Source of the DNA: Candidatus Eiseniibacteriota bacterium
Lineage (GTDB): Bacteria; Joyebacterota; Joyebacteria; Joyebacterales; Joyebacteraceae
Length of the DNA stretch: 38,822 nucleotides
Reading direction: 5' to 3'
Assembly (NCBI GenBank): GCA_030609365.1
Contig: JAUWCJ010000011.1
Coordinates: 1-38,822 of the forward strand
The notes beneath the pieces are model-generated. The model did not search any database. It was not told where the DNA came from and saw nothing but the letters and a program-made list of their open reading frames with translations. Positions 3,831-31,684 of this stretch are shown here, piece after piece. Each line of letters starts with the position of its first letter. The stretch's first letter is position 1. A program made the translations under genes and the position numbers.

Positions 3831-4223
3831 TCAGTAGTTGCCCATGAACGGGACCAGCGAAGCCAGTCCTACGGTGAAGGCGGCAATGATGCTGACGATT
3901 ATTCCTATCAGAGCGAGCACCCCGTAGATGGTGAAGTAGGTTTTGAGCTTCGACATCGCGCCGTAGAGCTCCATCTTGCTGCCGCTCGCCTGCGTAGACT
4001 CCACGGCCGTTGCCGTCTGGAAGAGAAGAATACCGATCCAGATAGGCAGCCAGCAGATGATGATGCCCACGACCGTGATGGCCATGAGAACCCCGTAGAT
4101 GATCATGAGCACACCGAGGAACTTCATCCAGCCCTTCGCCGCGAACAGCGGAGCGCTGACCTCGCGGATGAGCTGCCGCTCGTCTCCCCCTGAGGGGGTG
4201 AGGCCTCCGGTTACCTCTCCCAC
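3831..4223 (-). CDS. DUF5362-family membrane protein
   Basis: This 130-residue protein starts at GTG, after a strong AGGAGGTGA. A polar N-terminus (about 28 residues) is followed by the motif APLFAAKGWMKFLGVLMIIYG. Two hydrophobic helices follow (about 35-75) with the cytosolic segment SKMELYGAMSKLKTYF between them and a third hydrophobic region. The pattern is that of DUF5362, a small integral membrane family common in FCB-group and related genomes. No biochemical function is known to me. It is a stand-alone gene closed by the hairpin at 3774-3802. Confidence 0.8.
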   Translation of the reverse strand: MGEVTGGLTPSGGDERQLIREVSAPLFAAKGWMKFLGVLMIIYGVLMAITVVGIIICWLPIWIGILLFQTATAVESTQASGSKMELYGAMSKLKTYFTIYGVLALIGIIVSIIAAFTVGLASLVPFMGNY

Positions 4224-4325
4224 AATTCACCTCCTGGCTTGGGACCAAGAAGGACTCCCTGACACTCGCGGCAGGCTAGCACCGACGCCGCGCGGCGGTC
4301 AAGTGTCTCATCGTCGCCGCGAAGC

Positions 4326-4559
4326 TCACGTCTGAAGGAGTTCCTTGATCTCATCGACAGACAGGAGCTTCCCCGTGCTCTTGATCTCTCCATCGATAGC
4401 GAGCGCGGGCGTCATCATCACGCCGAACGCCATAATGTCTTTGATATCGGAGACCTTCTCCACCTCACACTCAATGCCCAGTTCCCCGATAATGTCATCT
4501 ACGCGCTCCTCGAGCTTCCTACATCTCGGGCAGCCGGTGCCCAGTATTTGTACCTTCAA
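4326..4559 (-). CDS. Thioredoxin-fold CxxC mini-protein (thioredoxin_3 type)
   Basis: This 77-residue protein begins KVQILGTGCPRC, with redox cysteines 10 and 13. It ends with the typical strand MMTPALAIDGEIKSTGK and a C-terminal helix. It matches the small redox-active disulfide/MTH895-like thioredoxins. I chose the TTG at 4557-4559 because AGGAGG lies eight bases upstream and the fold starts there; a longer frame from 4646 would add an unrelated Arg-rich extension. It probably exchanges thiols or disulfides in the cytoplasm. It lies downstream of the sulfur-relay cluster but behind a terminator (4603-4634), so it may be expressed separately. Confidence 0.85.
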   Translation of the reverse strand: MKVQILGTGCPRCRKLEERVDDIIGELGIECEVEKVSDIKDIMAFGVMMTPALAIDGEIKSTGKLLSVDEIKELLQT

Positions 4560-4602
4560 GCCTGTCCTCCTGTCTGCAGACACACGTCTCCGAACAGAAA
4601 GA

Positions 4603-4634
4603 AGGGGCCGCCTCGGAGAACCAATGCGGCCCCT
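4603..4634 (-). terminator. Rho-independent terminator after the sulfur-relay operon
   Basis: On the minus strand AGGGGCCGC (rightmost arm 4626-4634) pairs with GCGGCCCCT (4603-4611) in a perfect 9-bp stem with a 14-base loop. TCTTTCTGTT follows. It closes the tusA-dsrE-nifS-like unit. Confidence 0.75.
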
Positions 4635-4697
4635 GTCGCCGCCCACAGACGGCCCCCGTTGATGCCCGCGGCCGACCCGACCGCCTCGCCATAACTC

Positions 4698-5915
4698 CTA
4701 CTCCCCCTCCTCGTCGTGATCGTGATGCCCGAACTCTTTCTTGTCGTAGGTCATGCCCGGCCTGAACGCCGACATCTCGCGCAGGCGCTTCGCAATCCCG
4801 GGCAGCACGTCGAGCACCATATCGACGTCCTCGTCGGTCGACCACCTGCCGAACGTAAACTGAAGCGAGCCGTGCGCCTCCTCGTGCTTGATGCCCATCG
4901 CGAGCTGCACGTACGAGGGCTCGAGCGTCTTGGCGCTGCACGCCGACCCGCTTGAGACACTTATGCCTTCCATGTCGAGCGACAGCAGCAGGCTTTCACC
5001 CTCGATGTAGGCGAGCCGGATGTTCGCGTTGTTGGGAAGCCTCCGCTCGCGGGGCCCATTCAGCGTCGTGTCCTTAATACCCTTGAGGATCCCGTCCATC
5101 AGCCGGTCGCGCATGGGCCTGACCCGGGCGGTGTCCGCCTCCATCTCGTCACCCATGATCCTGGCGGCCACACCGAACCCAACGATGCCCGCGACGTTCT
5201 CAGTCCCAGAACGCAGCCCCCGTTCCTGCCCGCCTCCGTGAACGAGCGCCTCGAGCCGGATGCCCTTCCGTATATAGAGAGCACCCACACCCCTGGGCCC
5301 GTAGATGTCGTTGGACGACAGAGTTATGAGATCGAACGGGAGCGTCGACACGTCGATGGGGATCCACGCCCCGGCCGCCGTGGCGTCCGTGTGGAAGAGA
5401 ACACCCGCGGCCCTCGCGATGTCCGCGATCTTCCCCACCGGCTGGATGGTGCCCACCTCACCCAGTGCCGTCATCACGGAGATCAGGACCGTGTCGTCGC
5501 GGATCGCCGCCTCGACGTCGTTGGGGTTCACGAACCCCTCGTCGTCCACGGGCAGCCAGGTCACCTCGAAACCGAGACGCTCGAGGTACTTGAGCGGGGT
5601 GATGACCGAGCGATGCTCGACCACGGAGGAGATGATGTGCTTGCCCTTGGACTGGAGTTTCAGTGCCACGCCCTTCAAGGCCATATTGTTGGCCTCGGTC
5701 GCTCCAGACGTGAAGACGATCTCGGCAGGTGTGGCGCCTGTGAATCCGGCGACGCGCTCGCGCGCCTCCTCGAGCGCCTGGCGCGCGGCGTCACCGTCGG
5801 ACCGGAACAGGATCGACGGGTTCCCGAAGTGTTCGGTCATGTGGGGGATCATCGCTTCTACGACGCGCGGGTCGACCGGCGATGCCGACTGGTAGTCCAG
5901 ATATCCTTTCATCAC
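4698..5915 (-). CDS. Cysteine-desulfurase homologue (NifS/IscS family) lacking the PLP lysine
   Basis: This 405-residue class-V aminotransferase-fold protein aligns end to end with IscS/NifS. It keeps the N-terminal YLDYQSASPVDP, the stacking His101 (VVEHRSV), the PLP-ring Asp177 (HTDAT), the GGGQERGLRSGT segment and the persulfide cysteine Cys326 (SGSACSAKTLEPSY). The Schiff-base motif is altered: where IscS has SGHKIYGPKG this protein has SSNDIYGPRG, so His-Lys is Asn202-Asp203. The partner Gln after DAT is Ala180. Without the lysine, normal desulfuration is unlikely. It may be a sulfur carrier, scaffold or use another chemistry. The C-terminus is His/Asp/Glu-rich. It is the last gene of a tusA-like/dsrE-like unit. 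A GTG at 5915 has the better-spaced GGAGG; ATG at 5912 is the alternative. Confidence 0.9.
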   Translation of the reverse strand: MMKGYLDYQSASPVDPRVVEAMIPHMTEHFGNPSILFRSDGDAARQALEEARERVAGFTGATPAEIVFTSGATEANNMALKGVALKLQSKGKHIISSVVEHRSVITPLKYLERLGFEVTWLPVDDEGFVNPNDVEAAIRDDTVLISVMTALGEVGTIQPVGKIADIARAAGVLFHTDATAAGAWIPIDVSTLPFDLITLSSNDIYGPRGVGALYIRKGIRLEALVHGGGQERGLRSGTENVAGIVGFGVAARIMGDEMEADTARVRPMRDRLMDGILKGIKDTTLNGPRERRLPNNANIRLAYIEGESLLLSLDMEGISVSSGSACSAKTLEPSYVQLAMGIKHEEAHGSLQFTFGRWSTDEDVDMVLDVLPGIAKRLREMSAFRPGMTYDKKEFGHHDHDEEGE

Positions 5916-5934
5916 TGGCTTCCACCTCCGCCCG

Positions 5935-6303
5935 TCAGAAGGACAGGATCGCGTCCGCGTCCAACGAGAGGTCGTTCAAGGTTGCGGCGCCCACGACCAC
6001 CACTTCGTCAACGTAGTCTCCCCTGTCGAGGTCCATGAGCTGCGAACTCTGGTCGCAGGCCAGGAGCGTCACGCCCACGTCCACGGCCCGTTGCATCACC
6101 TCGGACAGCGTCGGGAAGGAACCCATCTGAATTTTCTCGGCCTCACCTCTCTTGACTACGGTGACGCCCTTCCCGAGAAAATAGATGGTGGCATCCAGGT
6201 TCATCGACGCGGCGACGGTCGCCAGGACGAACGGGGAGTATAGCCGCTCGGGGGTATCGACACCCGAGGTCTGTACATAGAGAATACGGTTCTTGTCGAC
6301 CAT
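5935..6303 (-). CDS. DsrE-like sulfur-relay protein
   Basis: This 122-residue protein has the DsrE/YchN alpha-beta fold: an N-terminal strand RILYVQTSG, ERLYSPFVLATVAASM, then ATIYFLGKGV, and a central cysteine Cys83 in TLLACDQS. In DsrE/TusD-type proteins that cysteine carries persulfide sulfur. The ATG at 6301-6303 was chosen because CGGAGGGA sits seven bases upstream; an ATG six bases further up is too close to it. It lies between the TusA-like carrier and the NifS homologue, so a sulfur hand-over role is likely. It may also simply be a peripheral redox partner. Confidence 0.85.
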   Translation of the reverse strand: MVDKNRILYVQTSGVDTPERLYSPFVLATVAASMNLDATIYFLGKGVTVVKRGEAEKIQMGSFPTLSEVMQRAVDVGVTLLACDQSSQLMDLDRGDYVDEVVVVGAATLNDLSLDADAILSF

Positions 6304-6386
6304 TGTCATTCCCTCCGATATCAGGAGCGCCGCGAGCCGCGCAGGCCGGCGCCTCCGGACCGCGTGGCGCATGCCGCCGACCGCCC

Positions 6387-6635
6387 CTACGCGGTCCGGC
6401 GGACCAGAAATCGGAAGACGTTCCCGTCTTCCTCAATGGAGATGAGCTCGTGACCGGTTCGCTTCGTCCAGCTCTGGATGTCGGGCTTCGACGACGGGTC
6501 GTCGGCCAGGAGCTCGAGCACGTCGCCGACCTCGACGTCGCCTATCGCCTCGTTGACCCGTATCACGGGCTCGGGGCAGAAGTAGCCAGTTATGTCGAGT
6601 GTCTCGGCGACGGTCTGTTCGCTCTTGTCTCCCAT
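6387..6635 (-). CDS. TusA-family sulfur carrier
   Basis: This 82-residue protein carries the TusA/SirA signature LDITGYFCPEPVIRVNEAI with the persulfide-accepting Cys20 in CPEP. The DVLELLADDPSSKPDIQSWTKRTGHELI segment and a final beta strand are also typical of the family. TusA proteins shuttle sulfane sulfur from a cysteine desulfurase to DsrE-type acceptors, tRNA-thiolation or cofactor pathways. It is the first gene of a minus-strand trio with the DsrE-like protein and the lysine-less NifS homologue. GGAGG lies just upstream of the ATG. Confidence 0.9.
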   Translation of the reverse strand: MGDKSEQTVAETLDITGYFCPEPVIRVNEAIGDVEVGDVLELLADDPSSKPDIQSWTKRTGHELISIEEDGNVFRFLVRRTA

Positions 6636-6746
6636 TCGACCTCCGCTTGCTGATGCCGCTGGACCGCGATGGAGCCGGACGTAGTTGGACCCGCGGGACC
6701 AAGCCTGATGCGCGTCACATTCATGAGTTGGCTCCCGCGAGTCCTA

Positions 6747-6764
6747 TGCACATCGTCTTGTGCA
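6747..6764. promoter_or_regulatory. Palindrome upstream of the tusA-like operon
   Basis: TGCACA-N6-TGTGCA lies about 112 bp before the TusA start, in the 189-bp gap that follows the M50 gene. The half sites equal those of the LexA boxes but the spacer is eight bases between TGCAC and GTGCA instead of four. It could be an operator for another regulator. I could not place a clear promoter beside it. Confidence 0.3.
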
Positions 6765-6824
6765 CACCCATTAGGATGCGGGCAGGGTGGGTGGGGTTCC
6801 TCGTCACAGAATCTCTCGCCGCGT

Positions 6825-7481
6825 CTAGTAGATGATCGCTGAGTGGAGTATCCCAACAAGCGCGAAGAGGGGTCTCAGAGCGCCCGTGAAGATAAGGAGC
6901 ATGAGAATCATGAAACCGTAGCGGCCGACGCTCAGGAACTGCCAGCCCATGTCCCGCGGCATGACCGCCGCGATCAGGCGGGAACCGTCCAGAGGAGGGA
7001 TGGGCAGGAGGTTGAACATGGCGAGGAGAAGATTGATGTATATGCCCCAGTAACCGATGAAGACCAGGAACGACCACTCCAGGCTCATGGCCACATGAAA
7101 GATGATGGTGTAGACCATCACCTGCGCGAGGTTCGAGACCGGCCCGGCCAGGGCGGTAATGGCGAAGTCGCGCATGGGGTCTCTGAACTGCCGTATGTCG
7201 ATCGGGACCGGCTTCGCCCAGCCCAGGAGCGGTAGATGCATCAGGACCGCCATGGCTGGCAGAATGATGCTCCCCACAAGATCGATGTGCGGCATGGGGT
7301 TCAGCGTGATCCTGCCCTGCCTCCGGGCAGTGGGGTCACCCAGCCTCTCCGCCACCAGCCCGTGCGAGACCTCGTGGATGATCACGGAGAAAAGCAGGAT
7401 CGCTATCGTAACAGGAACATGAAGTGCATTGATGATACTGTCCAATGGCGTCTCACTTGGAGTGATTCGGAGCGTCCGCAC
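6825..7481 (-). CDS. Site-2-protease family M50 membrane metallopeptidase
   Basis: This 218-residue, highly hydrophobic protein has the zinc site HEVSH (His36, Glu37, His40) in the first transmembrane segment. The GPVSN motif lies in the middle, and the third zinc ligand is in NLLPIPPLDGSRL. This is the compact M50/FwdE-like architecture without PDZ or CBS domains. Such enzymes cleave substrates within the membrane. The GTG start lies 12 bases after the stop of the HAD gene, so both are probably co-transcribed. The Shine-Dalgarno is weak. The substrate cannot be inferred. Confidence 0.9.
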   Translation of the reverse strand: MRTLRITPSETPLDSIINALHVPVTIAILLFSVIIHEVSHGLVAERLGDPTARRQGRITLNPMPHIDLVGSIILPAMAVLMHLPLLGWAKPVPIDIRQFRDPMRDFAITALAGPVSNLAQVMVYTIIFHVAMSLEWSFLVFIGYWGIYINLLLAMFNLLPIPPLDGSRLIAAVMPRDMGWQFLSVGRYGFMILMLLIFTGALRPLFALVGILHSAIIY

Positions 7482-25286: not shown

Positions 25287-25451
25287 AGTGACATCCCGGC
25301 TCCTGCGGGGCCGACCATAATGACTCTGCTACTCGACGTGGCAGTCCCTCGCCAGACACGATTCACAGAGGGACTGAGCAACCGCGTCGAGTGTCGTGTG
25401 TTCATCGGCGTCAGGTGACGACCCGGTCCGACCGGGGCCGTGGTTTTTTTT
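25287..25451 (+). ncRNA. Structured leader RNA, candidate cis-regulator of the hdr-frd operon
   Basis: A helix is formed by CTCGACG (25332-25338) with CGTCGAG (25385-25391). Inside it CAGTCCCTC (25342-25350) pairs perfectly with GAGGGACTG (25368-25376) around a 17-base loop. In that loop ACACGA (25356-25361) is complementary to TCGTGT (25394-25399) just outside the helix, a plausible pseudoknot. A terminator with eight T residues ends at 25451, 35 bases before the hdrA start. Helix, pseudoknot and terminator ahead of an operon is the usual riboswitch or attenuator layout. I could not match it to a riboswitch class I know. It could also be a free-standing small RNA. Confidence 0.5.
25418..25451 (+). 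terminator. Rho-independent terminator just upstream of hdrA
   Basis: ACGACCCGGT (25418-25427) folds on ACCGGGGCCGT (25431-25441) with one mismatch and one bulge. GG and eight T residues follow (25444-25451). It lies 258 bases after the PLP gene stop but only 35 bases before hdrA, so it probably acts within the hdrA leader. Confidence 0.75.
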
Positions 25452-25486
25452 GCCTTAGAGAAATTGAACCGAGCCAGGGGGTGGAT

Positions 25487-27877
25487 GTGAGAATCGGAGT
25501 CTACGTCTGTCACTGCGGAGGAAACATCTCCGAGGTCGTGGACGTTGAGAAGGTCGCGAAGGCAGTGGGCGAGCAGGGCAATGTCGTGATATCGCGCGAC
25601 TACGGCCATATGTGTTCGGACGTGGGTCAGAAGCTGATCGCAGACGACATCAAGGAGCACGAACTCGACCGGGTCGTGGTCGCCGCGTGCTCTCCCCAGT
25701 TCCAGGGCGGCACGTTCATGAGGGTGCTCGAGACGTCGGGGCTCAATCCGCACTTGCTCGAGATGGCGAACATCCGCGAGCACTGCTCGTGGACGCTCCC
25801 CGGCTCGCCGAAGGAAGCAACCGAAAAGGCCGAGAGCCTCACCAGTATGGCGGTCGCGAAGGCGCGGCTGGACGAACCGCTGGAGAAGAGAACCATGCCC
25901 ATCGGCAAGAGGGTGCTGGTGATCGGTGGGGGCATCGCCGGGATACAGGCTGCTCTCGATCTCGGGGACGCCGGGTTCGAGGTGCACCTGGTGGAGAGGA
26001 CCCCGTCCATCGGTGGCAAGATGGCCCAGCTCTCGAGGACGTTCCCGACGGAGGACTGCTCGGCGTGTATCTTGAGCCCGAAGATGGCGGACGTCCCCGC
26101 GAACCCCAACATCGACCTTCTGACGAACTCGGAGGTCACAGCCATCGAGGGCCACCTGGGCAGCTTCGACGTGACGGTCACGAAGAAGCCTCGCTACGTA
26201 GATCCGGACAAGTGCACCGCGTGCGGACTCTGCGAGGAGAAGTGCCCCGTATCGGTTCCGGATGAGTTCGAGGAGGGGCTGATCGAACGCAAGGCCATCC
26301 ACGTGCCGTTCGGTTTCTCCGTACCCAACAAGAACGTCATTGATGAAAGCGTCTGCCTGAGGCTGACCAAGGGCGGCGACGTCTGCGGCCTCTGCGAGAA
26401 GATTTGCCCTCACGACGCGATCGATTTCGGAGACAGACCCGAGACCGAGCAGTTCACCGTGGACACGGTCATAGTCGCGACGGGCTACGACATCTTCGAC
26501 GCCACCAAGAAGACGGTCTACGGATTCGGCCGGTTCGAGAACGTCATAACCGGCCTGCAGATGGAGCGGATGGTCGTACACGGCGCCGAGGGAACGCCGA
26601 TCCGCCCGATCAAGGGCCGGATCGCGTTCATCCAGTGCGTCGGTTCCCGTGACGAGCAGGTGGGCAACGAGTACTGCTCCAGGGTCTGCTGCATGTATGC
26701 GAGCAAGCTCTCCCAGCTCTTGAAGCGCTCGGACCCCAGTCGAGACGTCTACGTCTTCTACACCGACCTGCGGTCGTTTGGGAAGGGCTTCGAGGAGTAC
26801 TACAAGCGGGGGCAGGAGGCCGGCGTCAAGTTCGTGCGCGGCCGGCCGGCCGAGCTCCGTGAGGATCCGGTGACCAAGAGGGTGACTATCAAGGTCGAGG
26901 ACACACTCTCCCGGCAGATGATCGAGTCGGAGTTCGACCTGGTGGTCCTGTCGGTGGGCATGACGGCCAGCGCCCAGACCGATCCCATCGCCGAGATGCT
27001 CAAGCTCACGAAGAGCCCCGACGGGTTCCTTCAGGAGGCGCACCCCAAGTTCAAGCCGGTCGATACGCTGACCGAGGGAGTGTTCCTCGCGGGCACCGTT
27101 CAGGGTCCGAAGGACATACCGGACACGGTCACACAGGCAAGTGCGGCGGCGGCAAGGGCTATACGGCTCATGAACCAGGGCGAGTACACGCTCGACCCGG
27201 TCGTGGCGTTCGTTCACGAGGAGGCCTGTGACGGCTGCGGGCTGTGCGTCCCGGCCTGCCCGGTGAAGGCGATAGCGATCTCGGGCGGGGTAACGGAAAT
27301 CAGCGAGTCTTCGTGCACTGGTTGCGGCGTGTGCATCTCCGCCTGCCCAACGGAGGCCCTCGACCTCAAGGGATACACGAACGCGCAGCTCCTTGAAGAG
27401 GTAAGGGCCGCTCTGAGCGGAGGCGACGGTACGACCGTCCTTGTCTTCGCCGACGACATGACTGTCTACAGGTTGGCGGACAACGTGGGGACGGCGAGAA
27501 TGGCCTACGCCCCCAACTCGAGAATCATCAGGGTCCCGAGCGGAGGGCGGGTGACCCCCAGGCTCATCCTCGAGGCATTCTCGCTCGGCGCGGGGGCCGT
27601 TCTTATCGGCGACAGCGAGGAGAAATCGTCGCCCTTCGTCGGCAGCGCCGCGACGATGAAAGAGAACGTCGCGGCGGTGAAGAGCGCCCTCGAGACCGAG
27701 GGCATCGACCCGGAGCGAGTGCTCGGACTCGAGCTCGTCACCGTGATGATGGCCGGCTTCGTCGGCCGCGTGAACGGCCTGTGCGCGCTGGCCAACAAGC
27801 TGGGCGCGGTGCCGGAGGACAAGAGGAAGGCTCTGGTGGAGCACGTTAACGACAAGCTTCTCAGCAACAAGCGATAG
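25487..27877 (+). CDS. hdrA: HdrA-like flavoprotein fused to a cysteine-less MvhD-like domain
   Basis: This 796-residue protein starts at GTG 25487 behind AGGGGGTGG. Residues 1-130 form the N-terminal cluster domain (RIGVYVCHCGGN, VVAACSPQFQ). FAD binding starts at VLVIGGGIAGIQAA (about 143). Ferredoxin cysteines are C243/246/249/253 and C290/300/303/307, then two C-terminal 4Fe-4S motifs C581/584/587/591 and C610/613/616/620. Residues about 635-796 resemble MvhD (PNSRIIRVPSGGRVTPRLILEAFSLGAGAVLIGD). All [2Fe-2S] ligands of real MvhD are absent: the expected CCxWC, MCSGR and GGCxxxxCHY read FADDMTVY, VPSGGR and GDSEEKSSPF. HdrA normally splits electron pairs at its FAD. It is the first gene of the operon. 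Confidence 0.93.
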   Translation: MRIGVYVCHCGGNISEVVDVEKVAKAVGEQGNVVISRDYGHMCSDVGQKLIADDIKEHELDRVVVAACSPQFQGGTFMRVLETSGLNPHLLEMANIREHCSWTLPGSPKEATEKAESLTSMAVAKARLDEPLEKRTMPIGKRVLVIGGGIAGIQAALDLGDAGFEVHLVERTPSIGGKMAQLSRTFPTEDCSACILSPKMADVPANPNIDLLTNSEVTAIEGHLGSFDVTVTKKPRYVDPDKCTACGLCEEKCPVSVPDEFEEGLIERKAIHVPFGFSVPNKNVIDESVCLRLTKGGDVCGLCEKICPHDAIDFGDRPETEQFTVDTVIVATGYDIFDATKKTVYGFGRFENVITGLQMERMVVHGAEGTPIRPIKGRIAFIQCVGSRDEQVGNEYCSRVCCMYASKLSQLLKRSDPSRDVYVFYTDLRSFGKGFEEYYKRGQEAGVKFVRGRPAELREDPVTKRVTIKVEDTLSRQMIESEFDLVVLSVGMTASAQTDPIAEMLKLTKSPDGFLQEAHPKFKPVDTLTEGVFLAGTVQGPKDIPDTVTQASAAAARAIRLMNQGEYTLDPVVAFVHEEACDGCGLCVPACPVKAIAISGGVTEISESSCTGCGVCISACPTEALDLKGYTNAQLLEEVRAALSGGDGTTVLVFADDMTVYRLADNVGTARMAYAPNSRIIRVPSGGRVTPRLILEAFSLGAGAVLIGDSEEKSSPFVGSAATMKENVAAVKSALETEGIDPERVLGLELVTVMMAGFVGRVNGLCALANKLGAVPEDKRKALVEHVNDKLLSNKR

Positions 27878-27885
27878 GTGGCCAC

Positions 27886-28290
27886 ATGGCTGAAACAGTA
27901 GTTATCACAGTGAAGAGCGAGGCGTTCCTGAAGAAGATCGTCGCGCTGAGCGCCGAGGCGATCACCGTCTGCGACCAGTGCGGCACCTGCTCGGGAAGCT
28001 GTCCGATGATCGCGGAGATGGACGTCACGCCATCGCAGCTCATGAGAATGGTACAGCTGGGACAGAGTGAGGCGCTTGACACGAAGACGATGTGGGTATG
28101 CGCCTCATGTTTCGCCTGCACGGTACGCTGTCCACGGGGTCTCGACGTGTCGAAGGTCGCCGAGGCACTGCGACAGGTGACGCTCCGCAGGTCGGTCGAC
28201 CACCTCGACATCAGGAACATTCCGGACGATGAGCTGGCAGAGCTTCCGCAGATCGCCCTCGTCAGCGCGTTCAGAAAGCTCACCGGATAG
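27886..28290 (+). CDS. hdrC: HdrC-like 4Fe-4S electron-transfer subunit
   Basis: This 134-residue protein has two ferredoxin motifs: C29-x2-C32-x2-C35-x3-C39-P and C72-x2-C75-x2-C78-x3-C82-P. A basic/helical tail, DHLDIRNIPDDELAELPQIALVSAFRKLTG, follows. Both match heterodisulfide reductase subunit C, which wires HdrA to HdrB. It begins eight bases after hdrA. No membrane segment is present, so it is the soluble HdrABC type rather than HdrDE. Confidence 0.93.
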   Translation: MAETVVITVKSEAFLKKIVALSAEAITVCDQCGTCSGSCPMIAEMDVTPSQLMRMVQLGQSEALDTKTMWVCASCFACTVRCPRGLDVSKVAEALRQVTLRRSVDHLDIRNIPDDELAELPQIALVSAFRKLTG

Positions 28291-28301
28291 GAGAGAACAG
28301 A

Positions 28302-29264
28302 GTGACGTCTGAACAGACAAGCACGACGCGCGCCGCCCCGGATACCGGGAGCCCCAAGAGGACGCGGCTGCCTTACTACCCGGGCTGCACGCTCAAGACT
28401 ACGGGAAAAGGCCTGGAGGACTCCGCCCTGGCGGTCGCCGAGACGCTGGGGGTGGAACTCGTCGAGCTGCCCAGGTGGAACTGCTGCGGCGTGGTCACGT
28501 CCCTTACGGACGATGACCTGATGCGGCACATAGCACCCATCAGGAACATGGTGCGCGTCCAGGAGGTCAGCGATGCCGGCCTCGTGGATGACAAGCGGGT
28601 GGTTACTCTCTGCTCGATGTGCTTCAACGCCCTGAAGTGGTCCAATGCGCGCATCGTCGGGGACGCCGAGGATCTCAAGTCCCTCAACGATTTCATGTAC
28701 CTTGAGGAGGACTATCGGGGAGACGCGGAGGTCGTGCATTTCCTGGAGATCTTGAAGGAGCTCGACCCGGAGGCGATCGCGGAACAGGTGAAGACGCCTC
28801 TCGGTGAACTCAACGTGGCGCCCTACTACGGATGCACGCTGCTCCGGCCGAAGAGCATCGGTATAGATGACCCGGAGGACCCGACGATCCAGCAGGAGCT
28901 CCTTGAGATCATGGGGGCCACGGTCATCGACAATCCCTACAAGACGGTGTGCTGTGGCAGCTACCAGACAGTCCAGGACAAGTACGCCGTCGCCGAGCTC
29001 ACTCACGGTATCTTGAGTCACGCGAGGGCGGCGGGCGCGGAGGCCGTGACAACGTTCTGTCCCCTCTGCGCGTTCAACCTGGACAACAGGCAGAGGGAGG
29101 TCCTCGAGAAGCACCCGGATTTCGAGCCGATGCCTGTGTTCTACTTCACGCAGCTCATGGCAGTGGCGTTCGGCCTGAACCCGAAGTGCTGCCGGTTCGA
29201 CCTCAACCACACCGACCCGAGGCCGCTTCTCCGCGGCAAGGGCCTCATGAAGGAGGGGGCGTGA
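28302..29264 (+). CDS. hdrB: HdrB-like subunit with two CCG domains
   Basis: This 320-residue protein starts at GTG (28302). The first cysteine-rich domain has C29, C61-C62 (NCCGVV), C104 and C107 (CSMC). The second has C178, C217-C218 (VCCGSY), C253 and C256 (CPLC). These CX31-38CC...CX2C arrays bind the unusual non-cubane 4Fe-4S clusters that reduce disulfides in HdrB. All ligands are present, so catalytic chemistry on a disulfide or related acceptor is plausible. The native substrate in a non-methanogen is unknown. The stop overlaps the next start (GTGA), indicating coupled translation. Confidence 0.93.
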   Translation: MTSEQTSTTRAAPDTGSPKRTRLPYYPGCTLKTTGKGLEDSALAVAETLGVELVELPRWNCCGVVTSLTDDDLMRHIAPIRNMVRVQEVSDAGLVDDKRVVTLCSMCFNALKWSNARIVGDAEDLKSLNDFMYLEEDYRGDAEVVHFLEILKELDPEAIAEQVKTPLGELNVAPYYGCTLLRPKSIGIDDPEDPTIQQELLEIMGATVIDNPYKTVCCGSYQTVQDKYAVAELTHGILSHARAAGAEAVTTFCPLCAFNLDNRQREVLEKHPDFEPMPVFYFTQLMAVAFGLNPKCCRFDLNHTDPRPLLRGKGLMKEGA

Positions 29265-30019
29265 GCGAATCGAAGACCATGATGGAGAAGATCTCGGAGT
29301 CGACGAGATCACTGACGACCGGCGTCGACACCAGGGACGTCGAGCACTGGGTGACGATCTACATCATGGGGCGCGGATACAGTGTCCCCGCCGACCTCAC
29401 GATAATGACCGCCATGGAGTTCGCTGGGTATAAGCTCATCAGGTCCTGCGGATGCCGGCAGGGATTCTGCGGCGCGTGCGCCACGATCTTCCGCAGAGAG
29501 GGTCAGTACAAACTGGAATCGGCCCTCGCATGCCAGACGAGAGTGGAGGACGGGATGTGCCTGGTGCAGATTCCCTTCTCCCCCGCCGAGGCCGCCTACT
29601 ACGACATCGCGGCAGAGAGCTACGACTACTCGGTCTTCAGCAAACACTACCCCGAGGTGGCGCGCTGTGTCTCCTGCAACACGTGCACGAAGGCGTGTCC
29701 GCAGGACCTCGAAGTGATGGACTACATCCAGTCGGCCATCAAGGGCGACTTCGAGAGCCTCGCCGAGCAGTCTTTCGACTGCATTCAGTGTGGGCTCTGC
29801 GCGCTGCGCTGCCCGGCCGAGATAGTCCAGTACAACGTGGGACACCTTGGCAGGAGGATGTTCGGACGCTACGGCAGCCCCGAGCCCGAGCACCTCAAGA
29901 CGCGGCTGGCGGAGATGGAGCGTGGCGAGTTCTCGAGTGTGCTCGACGCTCTGGTCGGCGCGTCCACGGAGAAGCTCAAGGAACTCTACGCAGCCAGGGT
30001 GAGAGAATCCGACGAATAG
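29261..30019 (+). CDS. Fumarate-reductase-type iron-sulfur subunit (TfrB/FrdB-like)
   Basis: This 252-residue protein starts at GTG in a GTGA overlap with hdrB, behind AAGGAGGGGGC. The N-terminal [2Fe-2S] domain has an unusual ligand loop, SCGCRQGFCGACA (C63, C65, C70, C73), and C91, with one cysteine more than SdhB/FrdB. Two cluster motifs follow: CVSCNTCTKACP and CIQCGLCALRCP. The second is a full 4Fe-4S set where SdhB has a 3Fe-4S site next to quinone. There is no CCG domain, unlike methanogen TfrB; HdrB is encoded separately. No membrane-anchor genes follow, so the electron partner should be HdrABC rather than quinone. Confidence 0.88.
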   Translation: MSESKTMMEKISESTRSLTTGVDTRDVEHWVTIYIMGRGYSVPADLTIMTAMEFAGYKLIRSCGCRQGFCGACATIFRREGQYKLESALACQTRVEDGMCLVQIPFSPAEAAYYDIAAESYDYSVFSKHYPEVARCVSCNTCTKACPQDLEVMDYIQSAIKGDFESLAEQSFDCIQCGLCALRCPAEIVQYNVGHLGRRMFGRYGSPEPEHLKTRLAEMERGEFSSVLDALVGASTEKLKELYAARVRESDE

Positions 30020-30028
30020 GGAGGCGAG

Positions 30029-31684
30029 ATGTCTGAGGTCAAGTACATCGGCGGCTACCCGGAGCACATGCGGCAGTCAATCGAGATAGTCAACCGCTCG
30101 CGGGCGAGAAGGAAGGACGCCGTCCCCGCCGCGATGTCCGCGGAGCAACGCGAGGAGACGCTGCAGGTCCACCCGGACTACGCCCCCGGGGGCAAGAGAG
30201 AGCTCAAGATCGGGCCGAACAAGGGCGACCCCGTGCCGGTTCCGGTGGCCGATCTGCTCGAGTCCTATCCACTCATCGACGAGACCGAGATAGATCTGAG
30301 CGTGGCCGACCACGAGGTTGATGTGATGATCATCGGTGGGGGGCTCGCCGGGACCGCGGCCGCGCTTCTGGCACAGGACCAGGGCGTGGAGCGCGAGAAA
30401 ATACTACTGATCAACAAGCTGAGGCACGGTGACTGCAACTCCATCATGGCCGAGGGTGGAACACAGGCGGCGGACCGTCCGATAGACCCGCCGGATAGGC
30501 ACTTCCTCGATACGATCGGCGGCGGCCACTACGCGAACAAGCCCGAGGTCGTCAGGGCTCTGGTCGAGGACGCGCCCCTGGTTATGCACTGGCTCGAAGA
30601 ACTCGGAGTCGTCTTCGACAAGCGTGACAACGGGGACTACGTCGAGAACTGGGGTGGTGGCACCTCCGCGCGAAGGATGCACTCGTGCCGCGACTACACG
30701 GGCCTCGAGGAGTTCCGCGTACTGAGAGACGAGTTCAGGGCCAGGCGCATCCCCTCCATTGAACACTCACCGGCGATAGAACTCACAACGGATGAGAGCG
30801 GCCGCGTGACCGGCGCCGTGCTTTACAACCTTGAGACCGGGGCGTACCAGGTGGTCAGCGCGAAGGCCACCGTCCTCGCGACCGGCGGATTCGGACGCCT
30901 GCACATCAGGGGCTTCCCCACGACGAACCATTACGGGGCGACGGCCGACGGCCTGGTCCTCGCCTACCGGGCGGGCGCGAAGCTTCGCGATGCCGACACG
31001 GTACAGTACCACCCGACCGGCGCGGCCTACCCGGTGCAGATCGTCGGCTTCCTGCTCACCGAGAAGCTGAGGAGCGCGGGCGCACAGCCGATCAACAAGG
31101 ACGGCGAGGCCTTCGTCTTCCCACTCGAGCCCAGGGACGTAGAGGCTTCGGCGATCATCCGCGAGTGCTACGTGAGGGAGAACGGTATCACCACGCCATC
31201 CGGACTGCGCGGCGTCTGGCTGGACACGCCGTTGATCGATGCCATTCACGGCGAGGGCTACATAGACCGCGCGTTCCCGGCGATGAAGCGGATGTACGCC
31301 AGGTTCGACATAGACATAACGGTGGACCCCGTTCTCATCTTCCCGACTCTGCACTATCAGAACGGTGGAGTTGAGACCGACCCCGATGGCGCCACCAACA
31401 TCGAGGGGCTCTGGGTGGCCGGAGAGGTATCGGGAGGCATCCACGGCAAGAACAGGCTGATGGGTAATTCGACGCTGGGGACAATGGTGTTCGGCAGGCG
31501 CGCCGGCGCGGCCGCGGCCGCCTACGTCAAGTCCGCCGACGCAGGGGAACGCACGTTCCGCCACGTTGAGCAGTTCGTCGAACTACTGAAGGGCGCAGGC
31601 GTGGACTCCAGTCGCCGGGCGCCGATGCTGCTGCCGGAGTACAGGGGCAAGGCCTCTCTGGCGAGAATGATCGACGTGTGGTAG
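30029..31684 (+). CDS. Soluble fumarate-reductase/succinate-dehydrogenase-like flavoprotein (TfrA-like)
   Basis: In this 551-residue protein an N-terminal extension of about 95 residues precedes the FAD motif VDVMIIGGGLAGTAAALLA. The position of the covalent-FAD histidine in SdhA is Asn (GDCNSIMAEGG), as in aspartate oxidase and soluble reductases, so FAD should be non-covalent. Substrate-site elements are present: VQYHPTGAAYP, LHYQNGGVETD and GIHGKNRLMGNSTLG with the catalytic-type Arg. The C-terminal helical domain of FrdA/SdhA is missing. It likely reduces fumarate (or a related enoate) or oxidises succinate, linked through the FrdB-like subunit to HdrABC. GGGAGG precedes the ATG. It is the last gene of the operon. 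Confidence 0.88.
   Translation: MSEVKYIGGYPEHMRQSIEIVNRSRARRKDAVPAAMSAEQREETLQVHPDYAPGGKRELKIGPNKGDPVPVPVADLLESYPLIDETEIDLSVADHEVDVMIIGGGLAGTAAALLAQDQGVEREKILLINKLRHGDCNSIMAEGGTQAADRPIDPPDRHFLDTIGGGHYANKPEVVRALVEDAPLVMHWLEELGVVFDKRDNGDYVENWGGGTSARRMHSCRDYTGLEEFRVLRDEFRARRIPSIEHSPAIELTTDESGRVTGAVLYNLETGAYQVVSAKATVLATGGFGRLHIRGFPTTNHYGATADGLVLAYRAGAKLRDADTVQYHPTGAAYPVQIVGFLLTEKLRSAGAQPINKDGEAFVFPLEPRDVEASAIIRECYVRENGITTPSGLRGVWLDTPLIDAIHGEGYIDRAFPAMKRMYARFDIDITVDPVLIFPTLHYQNGGVETDPDGATNIEGLWVAGEVSGGIHGKNRLMGNSTLGTMVFGRRAGAAAAAYVKSADAGERTFRHVEQFVELLKGAGVDSSRRAPMLLPEYRGKASLARMIDVW

Follow-up and report, generated by a model that had tools for sequence, protein, structure and literature searches.

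An IscS homologue with Asn-Asp in place of the PLP-binding His-Lys pair, encoded beside TusA- and DsrE-like carriers: a candidate sulfur relay protein

The iscS-like gene and its surroundings

The window (the whole 38,822-nucleotide stretch of Candidatus Eiseniibacteriota DNA analysed here) carries on its minus strand, at 4698–5915, an intact open reading frame of 405 amino acids, starting at either GTG 5915 or ATG 5912, which encodes a class-V homologue of the IscS type lacking the Schiff-base lysine. The protein has the class-V aminotransferase fold and IscS-type sequence, as judged from a match to PF00266 (E 2.3e-70) and from Foldseek: the top matches of its AlphaFold2 model (pLDDT 84) include PDB entries 4EB7 and 4HVK and E. 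coli IscS (TM ~0.9 for IscS), and in sequence no protein of solved structure matches it better than Archaeoglobus fulgidus IscS2 (4EB5; E 5e-133). It scores under every NCBIfam equivalog cut-off, e.g. 469.7 versus 530.75 bits for NifS.

From S200 to G209 (5289–5318, minus strand) the protein reads SSNDIYGPRG, encoded by tcg tcc AAC GAC atc tac ggg ccc agg ggt, where, as an earlier note on this DNA had claimed, IscS and NifS have their His-Lys motif. Thus, N202 (AAC, 5312–5310) replaces H205 of E. coli IscS (Ec H205), and D203 (GAC, 5309–5307) replaces Ec K206, the position of the Schiff-base lysine. In IscS and NifS, the substrate is anchored at its carboxylate by R354, while PLP is stacked against H104 and has its pyridine nitrogen paired with D180. 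The first of these positions is also altered in the window protein, being occupied by Q352 (4860–4862), as are those of Ec Q183, now A180 (5376–5378), and Ec N155, now G152. The stacking histidine (H101, equivalent to Ec H104; 5613–5615) and the PLP-pyridine aspartate (D177, equivalent to Ec D180; 5385–5387) are both retained, as is the persulfide cysteine, C326 (equivalent to Ec C328; 4938–4940), in the mobile loop GSACSAKTL. The earlier note was therefore right in reporting the loss of the pyridine-facing glutamine and the survival of the cysteine, aspartate and histidine. Residues 325–330 have pLDDT values below 50, as expected for a mobile loop.

Two putative sulfur carriers, also recognized in the earlier note and now matched to Pfam models, are encoded upstream of iscS on the same strand. 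The dsrE-like gene (5935–6309; PF02635, E 7.9e-17) probably starts at ATG 6309, after GGAGGG, within a frame that is open from 6372, and its conserved cysteine codon (6057–6055) specifies cysteine in all 41 operon homologues; the tusA-like gene (6387–6635; PF01206, E 8.3e-23) has its CPEP cysteine codon at 6578–6576, again invariably cysteine (54/54 operon homologues). Downstream of iscS, also on the minus strand, lies an MTH895/ArsE-type thioredoxin-like gene (4326–4559; TIGR00412, E 5.6e-31), with a TTG start at 4559 after AGGAGG in a frame open to 4646. The intervening gap contains a terminator-like hairpin read from the sequence (4596–4633, minus strand; GGGGCCGC...GCGGCCCC + TTCTTTCT), which is overlapped by a weaker stem at 4642–4626 found by a pattern scan. 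With this hairpin in between, and with the thioredoxin gene adjoining iscS in only 3 of 15 members of the window's family, we rejected it as a fixed operon partner; its membership of the tusA-dsrE-iscS unit is uncertain. Elsewhere in the window, at 25391–31684, genes for HdrA-like, CCG-domain (HdrB-like), Fer2/Fer4 and FAD_binding_2 proteins follow one another in an arrangement reminiscent of a gene cluster for a heterodisulfide or thiol:fumarate reductase.

The unusual motif does not reflect a fault in the sequence. When related genomes were searched at the protein level, most of those belonging to the window's family proved to have the IscS-like gene, and Asn-Asp is kept in all 15 same-family genomes that span the whole motif region, with synonymous variation of its codons (AAC/AAT and GAC/GAT) and a dN/dS of 0.14–0.27; because of this, a base-calling artefact is ruled out, and the gene is under purifying selection. 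Apart from the oddity of the motif itself, nothing speaks for a base-calling error or a decaying pseudogene, which, given the intact frame, the purifying selection, the agreement within the family and the depth of the clade described below, we reject as extremely unlikely.

A clade of IscS proteins without the lysine

When GTDB genomes were scanned for NDIYGPKG, 80 loci emerged, 78 of which encode IscS homologues. Since counting Asn-Asp in loci fetched by that very motif is circular, its conservation was judged from the protein searches of the window's family and of Asgard archaea. The archaeal sources of the loci include Bathyarchaeota, Asgard archaea, Thermoplasmata, Methanoperedens, Methanomassiliicoccus and Hadesarchaea, and the bacterial ones Deltaproteobacteria, Syntrophobacterales, Aminicenantes, WOR-3/Stahlbacteria, Aerophobetes, Eisenbacteria and Fibrobacterota. 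The Asgard members recovered by protein search, outside the motif-fetched set, have ND, or else NE (L231 and L241) or NS (L288 and L289), and never lysine at the motif.

Two trees were built after the alignment columns of the motif, the Gln position, the Cys loop and the Arg position had been taken out. In both, a single branch separates the ND group, with A. fulgidus IscS2 and the window protein among its members, from the rest (UFboot 99, SH-aLRT 72 and 200/200 bootstrap trees in the first; UFboot 99 and SH-aLRT 82 in the second). The window protein thus shares its ancestry with A. fulgidus IscS2, separately from the Lys-bearing IscS proteins. Bacterial members fall in at least two places among the archaeal ones, and this suggests transfer between the domains.

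The ND substitution as such is not new, as A. fulgidus IscS2 carries SSNDIYGPKG. The two proteins, which are ~53–55% identical, share not only the motif and the clade but also the replacement of the glutamine by alanine and the loss of the substrate arginine (leucine in A. fulgidus IscS2, with a Cys loop of GSACSSKTL). They differ in that A. fulgidus IscS2 (4EB5, 4EB7 and 4HVK) comes from an archaeon and has been seen in complex with IscU, whereas the window protein is bacterial, has tusA and dsrE rather than iscU adjacent to its gene, and has additionally lost Ec N155 (to glycine).

Active-site losses and retentions across the clade

Residues were counted in 126 clade members and in 79 Lys-bearing relatives. 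The motif asparagine is invariant in the clade and is followed by aspartate in 122 members, glutamate in two and serine in two; hence the ND motif, which the earlier note had proposed looking for among the closest homologues, is common to a whole clade. By contrast, all 79 relatives have His-Lys at Ec H205-K206, a lysine at K206 occurring in none of the clade (0/126 versus 79/79). Equally consistent is the loss of the substrate arginine: position 354 is Gln, Glu, Leu or Val in all 126 clade members (0/126 Arg) and Arg in 76 of the 79 relatives. The equivalent of Ec Q183 is alanine in 119/126, compared with glutamine in 74/79 Lys-bearing sequences; within the clade, glutamine occurs there in 1 of 15 members of the window's family and in none of the 111 outside it. 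At the same time, the persulfide cysteine and the equivalents of Ec H104 and D180 are each retained in 126/126, as is T73 (Ec T76), and S200 is retained in 125/126. Compared with E. coli IscS (1P3W; TusA complex, 3LVJ) and NifS, the window protein therefore shares the fold, persulfide cysteine, stacking histidine, pyridine aspartate and IscU-docking glutamates, but lacks the Schiff-base lysine, its histidine, Gln183 and Arg354.

The joint absence of the Schiff-base lysine and of the arginine for the substrate speaks against standard desulfurase chemistry of any kind, and on these sequence grounds the window-type protein has very probably lost normal desulfurase activity. Might it still be a PLP enzyme, acting on cysteine or another substrate, with the cofactor held non-covalently or through a relocated lysine? 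The unbroken pocket (H101, D177 and T73 in 126/126; S200 in 125/126) could still accommodate PLP without a covalent bond, or else a ligand with a structural role, and basic residues are indeed enriched in the clade, namely K109 (124/126), R300 (125/126) and, next to the Cys loop, K329 (118/126). The neighbouring lysine that the earlier note had named as a potential Schiff-base former thus has two candidates, K329 and K109, but neither is invariant: K329 gives way to Arg, Leu or Met and K109 to Glu or Arg, and because each is replaced by other residues in some members, both look non-catalytic. Moreover, the arginine is lost throughout, the D203 position tolerates Glu and Ser, and A. fulgidus IscS2 has been reported inactive (PMC7585200), making a surviving PLP enzyme very doubtful.

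The same paper attributes the lack of desulfurase activity in A. fulgidus IscS to the replacement of lysine by aspartate, and states that a cysteine of the protein ligates the cluster on IscU; Methanosarcina acetivorans IscS1 (MA0808) likewise lacks the PLP lysine (PMC7585200). The latter resembles the proteins considered here in its lost lysine and in its pairing with a long (24.2-kDa) IscU1, and its gene lies in a cluster with four uncharacterized ones (PMC7585200). A D199K mutant of A. fulgidus IscS2 is represented by PDB entry 4R5F. The title of Yamanaka 2013 reportedly calls the A. fulgidus protein an 'unusual L-cysteine desulfurase', and because of this title, the activity record of A. 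fulgidus IscS2 may be mixed.

The tusA-dsrE-iscS-iscU operon

Neighbours were counted only at loci with enough flanking sequence, comprising 52 clade genes outside the window's family, 39 Lys-bearing genes and 15 genes of the family. In the clade, tusA adjoins the ND iscS in 50/52 cases and dsrE in 32/52, versus 0/39 for both among the Lys-bearing genes, and iscU does so in 49/52 versus 13/39. The usual order is tusA-dsrE-iscS-iscU, and the IscU homologues keep their Asp and Cys ligands (C/D/C/C; 46/46, and 45/45 for the last Cys). In the window's family, tusA and dsrE are each found beside iscS in 9/15, and iscU in 0/15; in the genomes of its relatives, iscU (PF01592) sits elsewhere. No PF01592 gene was found in the assembly containing the window. 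True loss of iscU from this organism is not accepted, however: the missing gene is likely an assembly gap, because the M1-peptidase-like gene that adjoins iscU in the relatives is also missing from the assembly.

Most of the iscU genes in ND operons (e.g. that of L048) encode proteins of ~258 aa in which IscU is fused to half a pyridine-nucleotide-disulfide reductase domain (Pyr_redox, E 3.5e-6), perhaps a reductase or docking remnant. In WOR-3/Stahlbacteria, the ND operons (e.g. L065, L086, L111 and L114) often have, directly upstream of tusA, genes that by eye look like those for rubrerythrin, ferritin and desulfoferrodoxin, hinting at a link to oxidative stress or iron handling.

The IscU-docking glutamates Ec E309 and E311 are conserved in 126/126 clade members, including the window's family, and E347 in 116/126. 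The residues with which E. coli IscS docks TusA are only partly conserved. In the E. coli IscS–TusA complex, the two cysteines lie ~4 Å apart, and IscU, which binds a different surface of IscS, nevertheless displaces TusA (PMC2854127). A minimal archaeal IscS–IscU pair has been defined by Garcia et al. as the MIS system (MisS/MisU), as described second-hand in PMC12442378.

The invariant docking glutamates bear on what we regard as the main rival to a relay, the ligand-only role proposed for A. fulgidus IscS. The protein would then merely hold IscU while C326 ligates a [2Fe-2S] cluster being assembled from free sulfide, and TusA and DsrE would serve some other acceptor. Both the A. fulgidus IscS–IscU structure (4EB5/4EB7) and its authors' proposal, as cited in PMC7585200, favour such a scaffold. 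What it leaves unexplained is the occurrence of tusA beside 50/52 clade genes, and beside a second Lys-less group (see below), set against its absence from the Lys-bearing ones; we consider this role possible, but on balance unlikely.

A second Lys-less group

In one genome, an IscS-like gene with the motif AAQT is part of a row encoding IscS-IscU-DsrE2-TusA. The AAQT protein was searched against 386 genomes and 30 loci were read; at 14 of these, the lysine is missing, the motif positions being HQ, QQ, NQ, SQ, QH, HR, QG, NS, PQ or QT (members include L316, positions 4018–6865, from genome G020, and L319–L323, L328, L332, L337 and L343–L346). All 14 lack Arg354 and keep the persulfide cysteine, and the genes are linked to those for TusA, DsrE or DsrE2, and IscU. 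A tusA gene is near 10 of the 14, or 11 if the longer stretch L316 is used for G020, whereas the 16 Lys-bearing genes from the same search have tusA in 0/16 and Arg354 in 15/16.

The features shared with the ND clade are thus the missing lysine and arginine, the retained cysteine and the linkage to TusA/DsrE(DsrE2)/IscU; the differences are a separate branch, a variable motif and a Cys loop mostly ending in [KR]AL. A single origin of the two groups was rejected (p-AU 0.024, a modest value from a single test in which the groups were named before the tree was built), and the second group appears from this to have arisen independently. An independent-pairs test of lysine loss against tusA had only two pairs and so no power. 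Both this group and, within the ND clade, the loss of the substrate arginine and the linkage to TusA/DsrE appear to be undescribed in searchable papers, and no paper describing the tusA-dsrE-iscS-iscU operon was found in the literature searched (subscription papers excluded).

Two further sets of sequences stand at the margins. L341, which branches at the base of the second group and is a possible intermediate towards it, still has His-Lys, but its Arg354 is gone and its Cys loop is unusual (GSTCTFTARKP). The Asgard IscS homologues L301/L311 (DAHH) and L309/L312 (DSHA) are Lys-less yet retain Arg354, and no tusA, dsrE or iscU was found at their loci.

A proposed relay of sulfane sulfur to IscU

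From the losses, the retained residues, the clade and the gene linkage, we infer that the window protein is inactive, binds these partners and lies on a path of sulfur from TusA/DsrE via C326 to IscU. Our preferred reading, held with moderate confidence, is that an IscS of the A. fulgidus IscS2 clade has here been retired from catalysis and relays sulfane sulfur along this path. The suggestion in the earlier note of a scaffold that accepts persulfide without making it is thereby upheld as the best reading, in view of the clade, the retained Cys, His and Asp, and the carriers; what that note had missed was the IscS2 type of the protein, the loss of the substrate arginine and iscU as the usual partner.

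Because the Schiff-base lysine (K206, now D203), its neighbouring histidine (H205) and the substrate-carboxylate arginine (R354, now Q352) are gone, the protein could not desulfurate cysteine through the established PLP chemistry. Still in place are the mobile C326 and the glutamates that dock IscU, together with the fold and the cofactor pocket. Sulfane sulfur from elsewhere would arrive on DsrE and TusA, and TusA would pass it to C326, in a reversal of the IscS-to-TusA step of E. coli, charging the cysteine without PLP chemistry; the C326 loop would then swing to IscU, to act as persulfide donor and/or temporary cluster ligand. Set against the relay are the incomplete conservation of the TusA-docking residues, the location of iscU outside the operon in the window's family and the members of that family without adjacent tusA or dsrE.

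The ultimate origin of the sulfur has to be considered separately. The genome containing the window encodes two Lys-bearing IscS-type proteins (L001, SSHKIYGPKG; L002, AGHKVYAPKG), and 28 of 35 clade genomes, some of them related to this one, likewise encode such a protein; therefore, cysteine could still be the ultimate source. One could accordingly imagine the ND protein acting with its Lys-bearing paralogue, as a mixed dimer or as an acceptor of its persulfide. Yet no other IscS-type protein was detected at E 1e-30 in 6 of the 35 genomes (to which assembly incompleteness may contribute), one has only a SufS-type protein besides the ND protein, and the Lys-bearing paralogue lies outside the operon, so that a partnership of this kind seems very improbable.

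Taking the relay through C326 beyond this organism, we tentatively propose, with somewhat less conviction than would make it probable, a cysteine-independent route in anaerobic archaea and bacteria, from DsrE/TusA to the cysteine of a dead IscS and on to IscU, which would have arisen at least twice by loss of the lysine and the substrate arginine from an IscS already joined with tusA and dsrE. It would speak to how sulfide- or sulfur-rich anaerobes supply Fe-S assembly with sulfur that does not come from cysteine: the factors that direct sulfide to the Fe-S machinery are unknown according to PMC7585200, and no desulfurase for SMS was found in M. jannaschii (PMC12192291). The tusA-dsrE-(dead iscS)-iscU operon, found in two separate Lys-less lineages, provides candidates for such sulfide-directing factors that are directly testable. 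Many archaeal and bacterial 'cysteine desulfurase' annotations are probably wrong about activity, and what had been an isolated observation in A. fulgidus gains a family, partners and a likely role.
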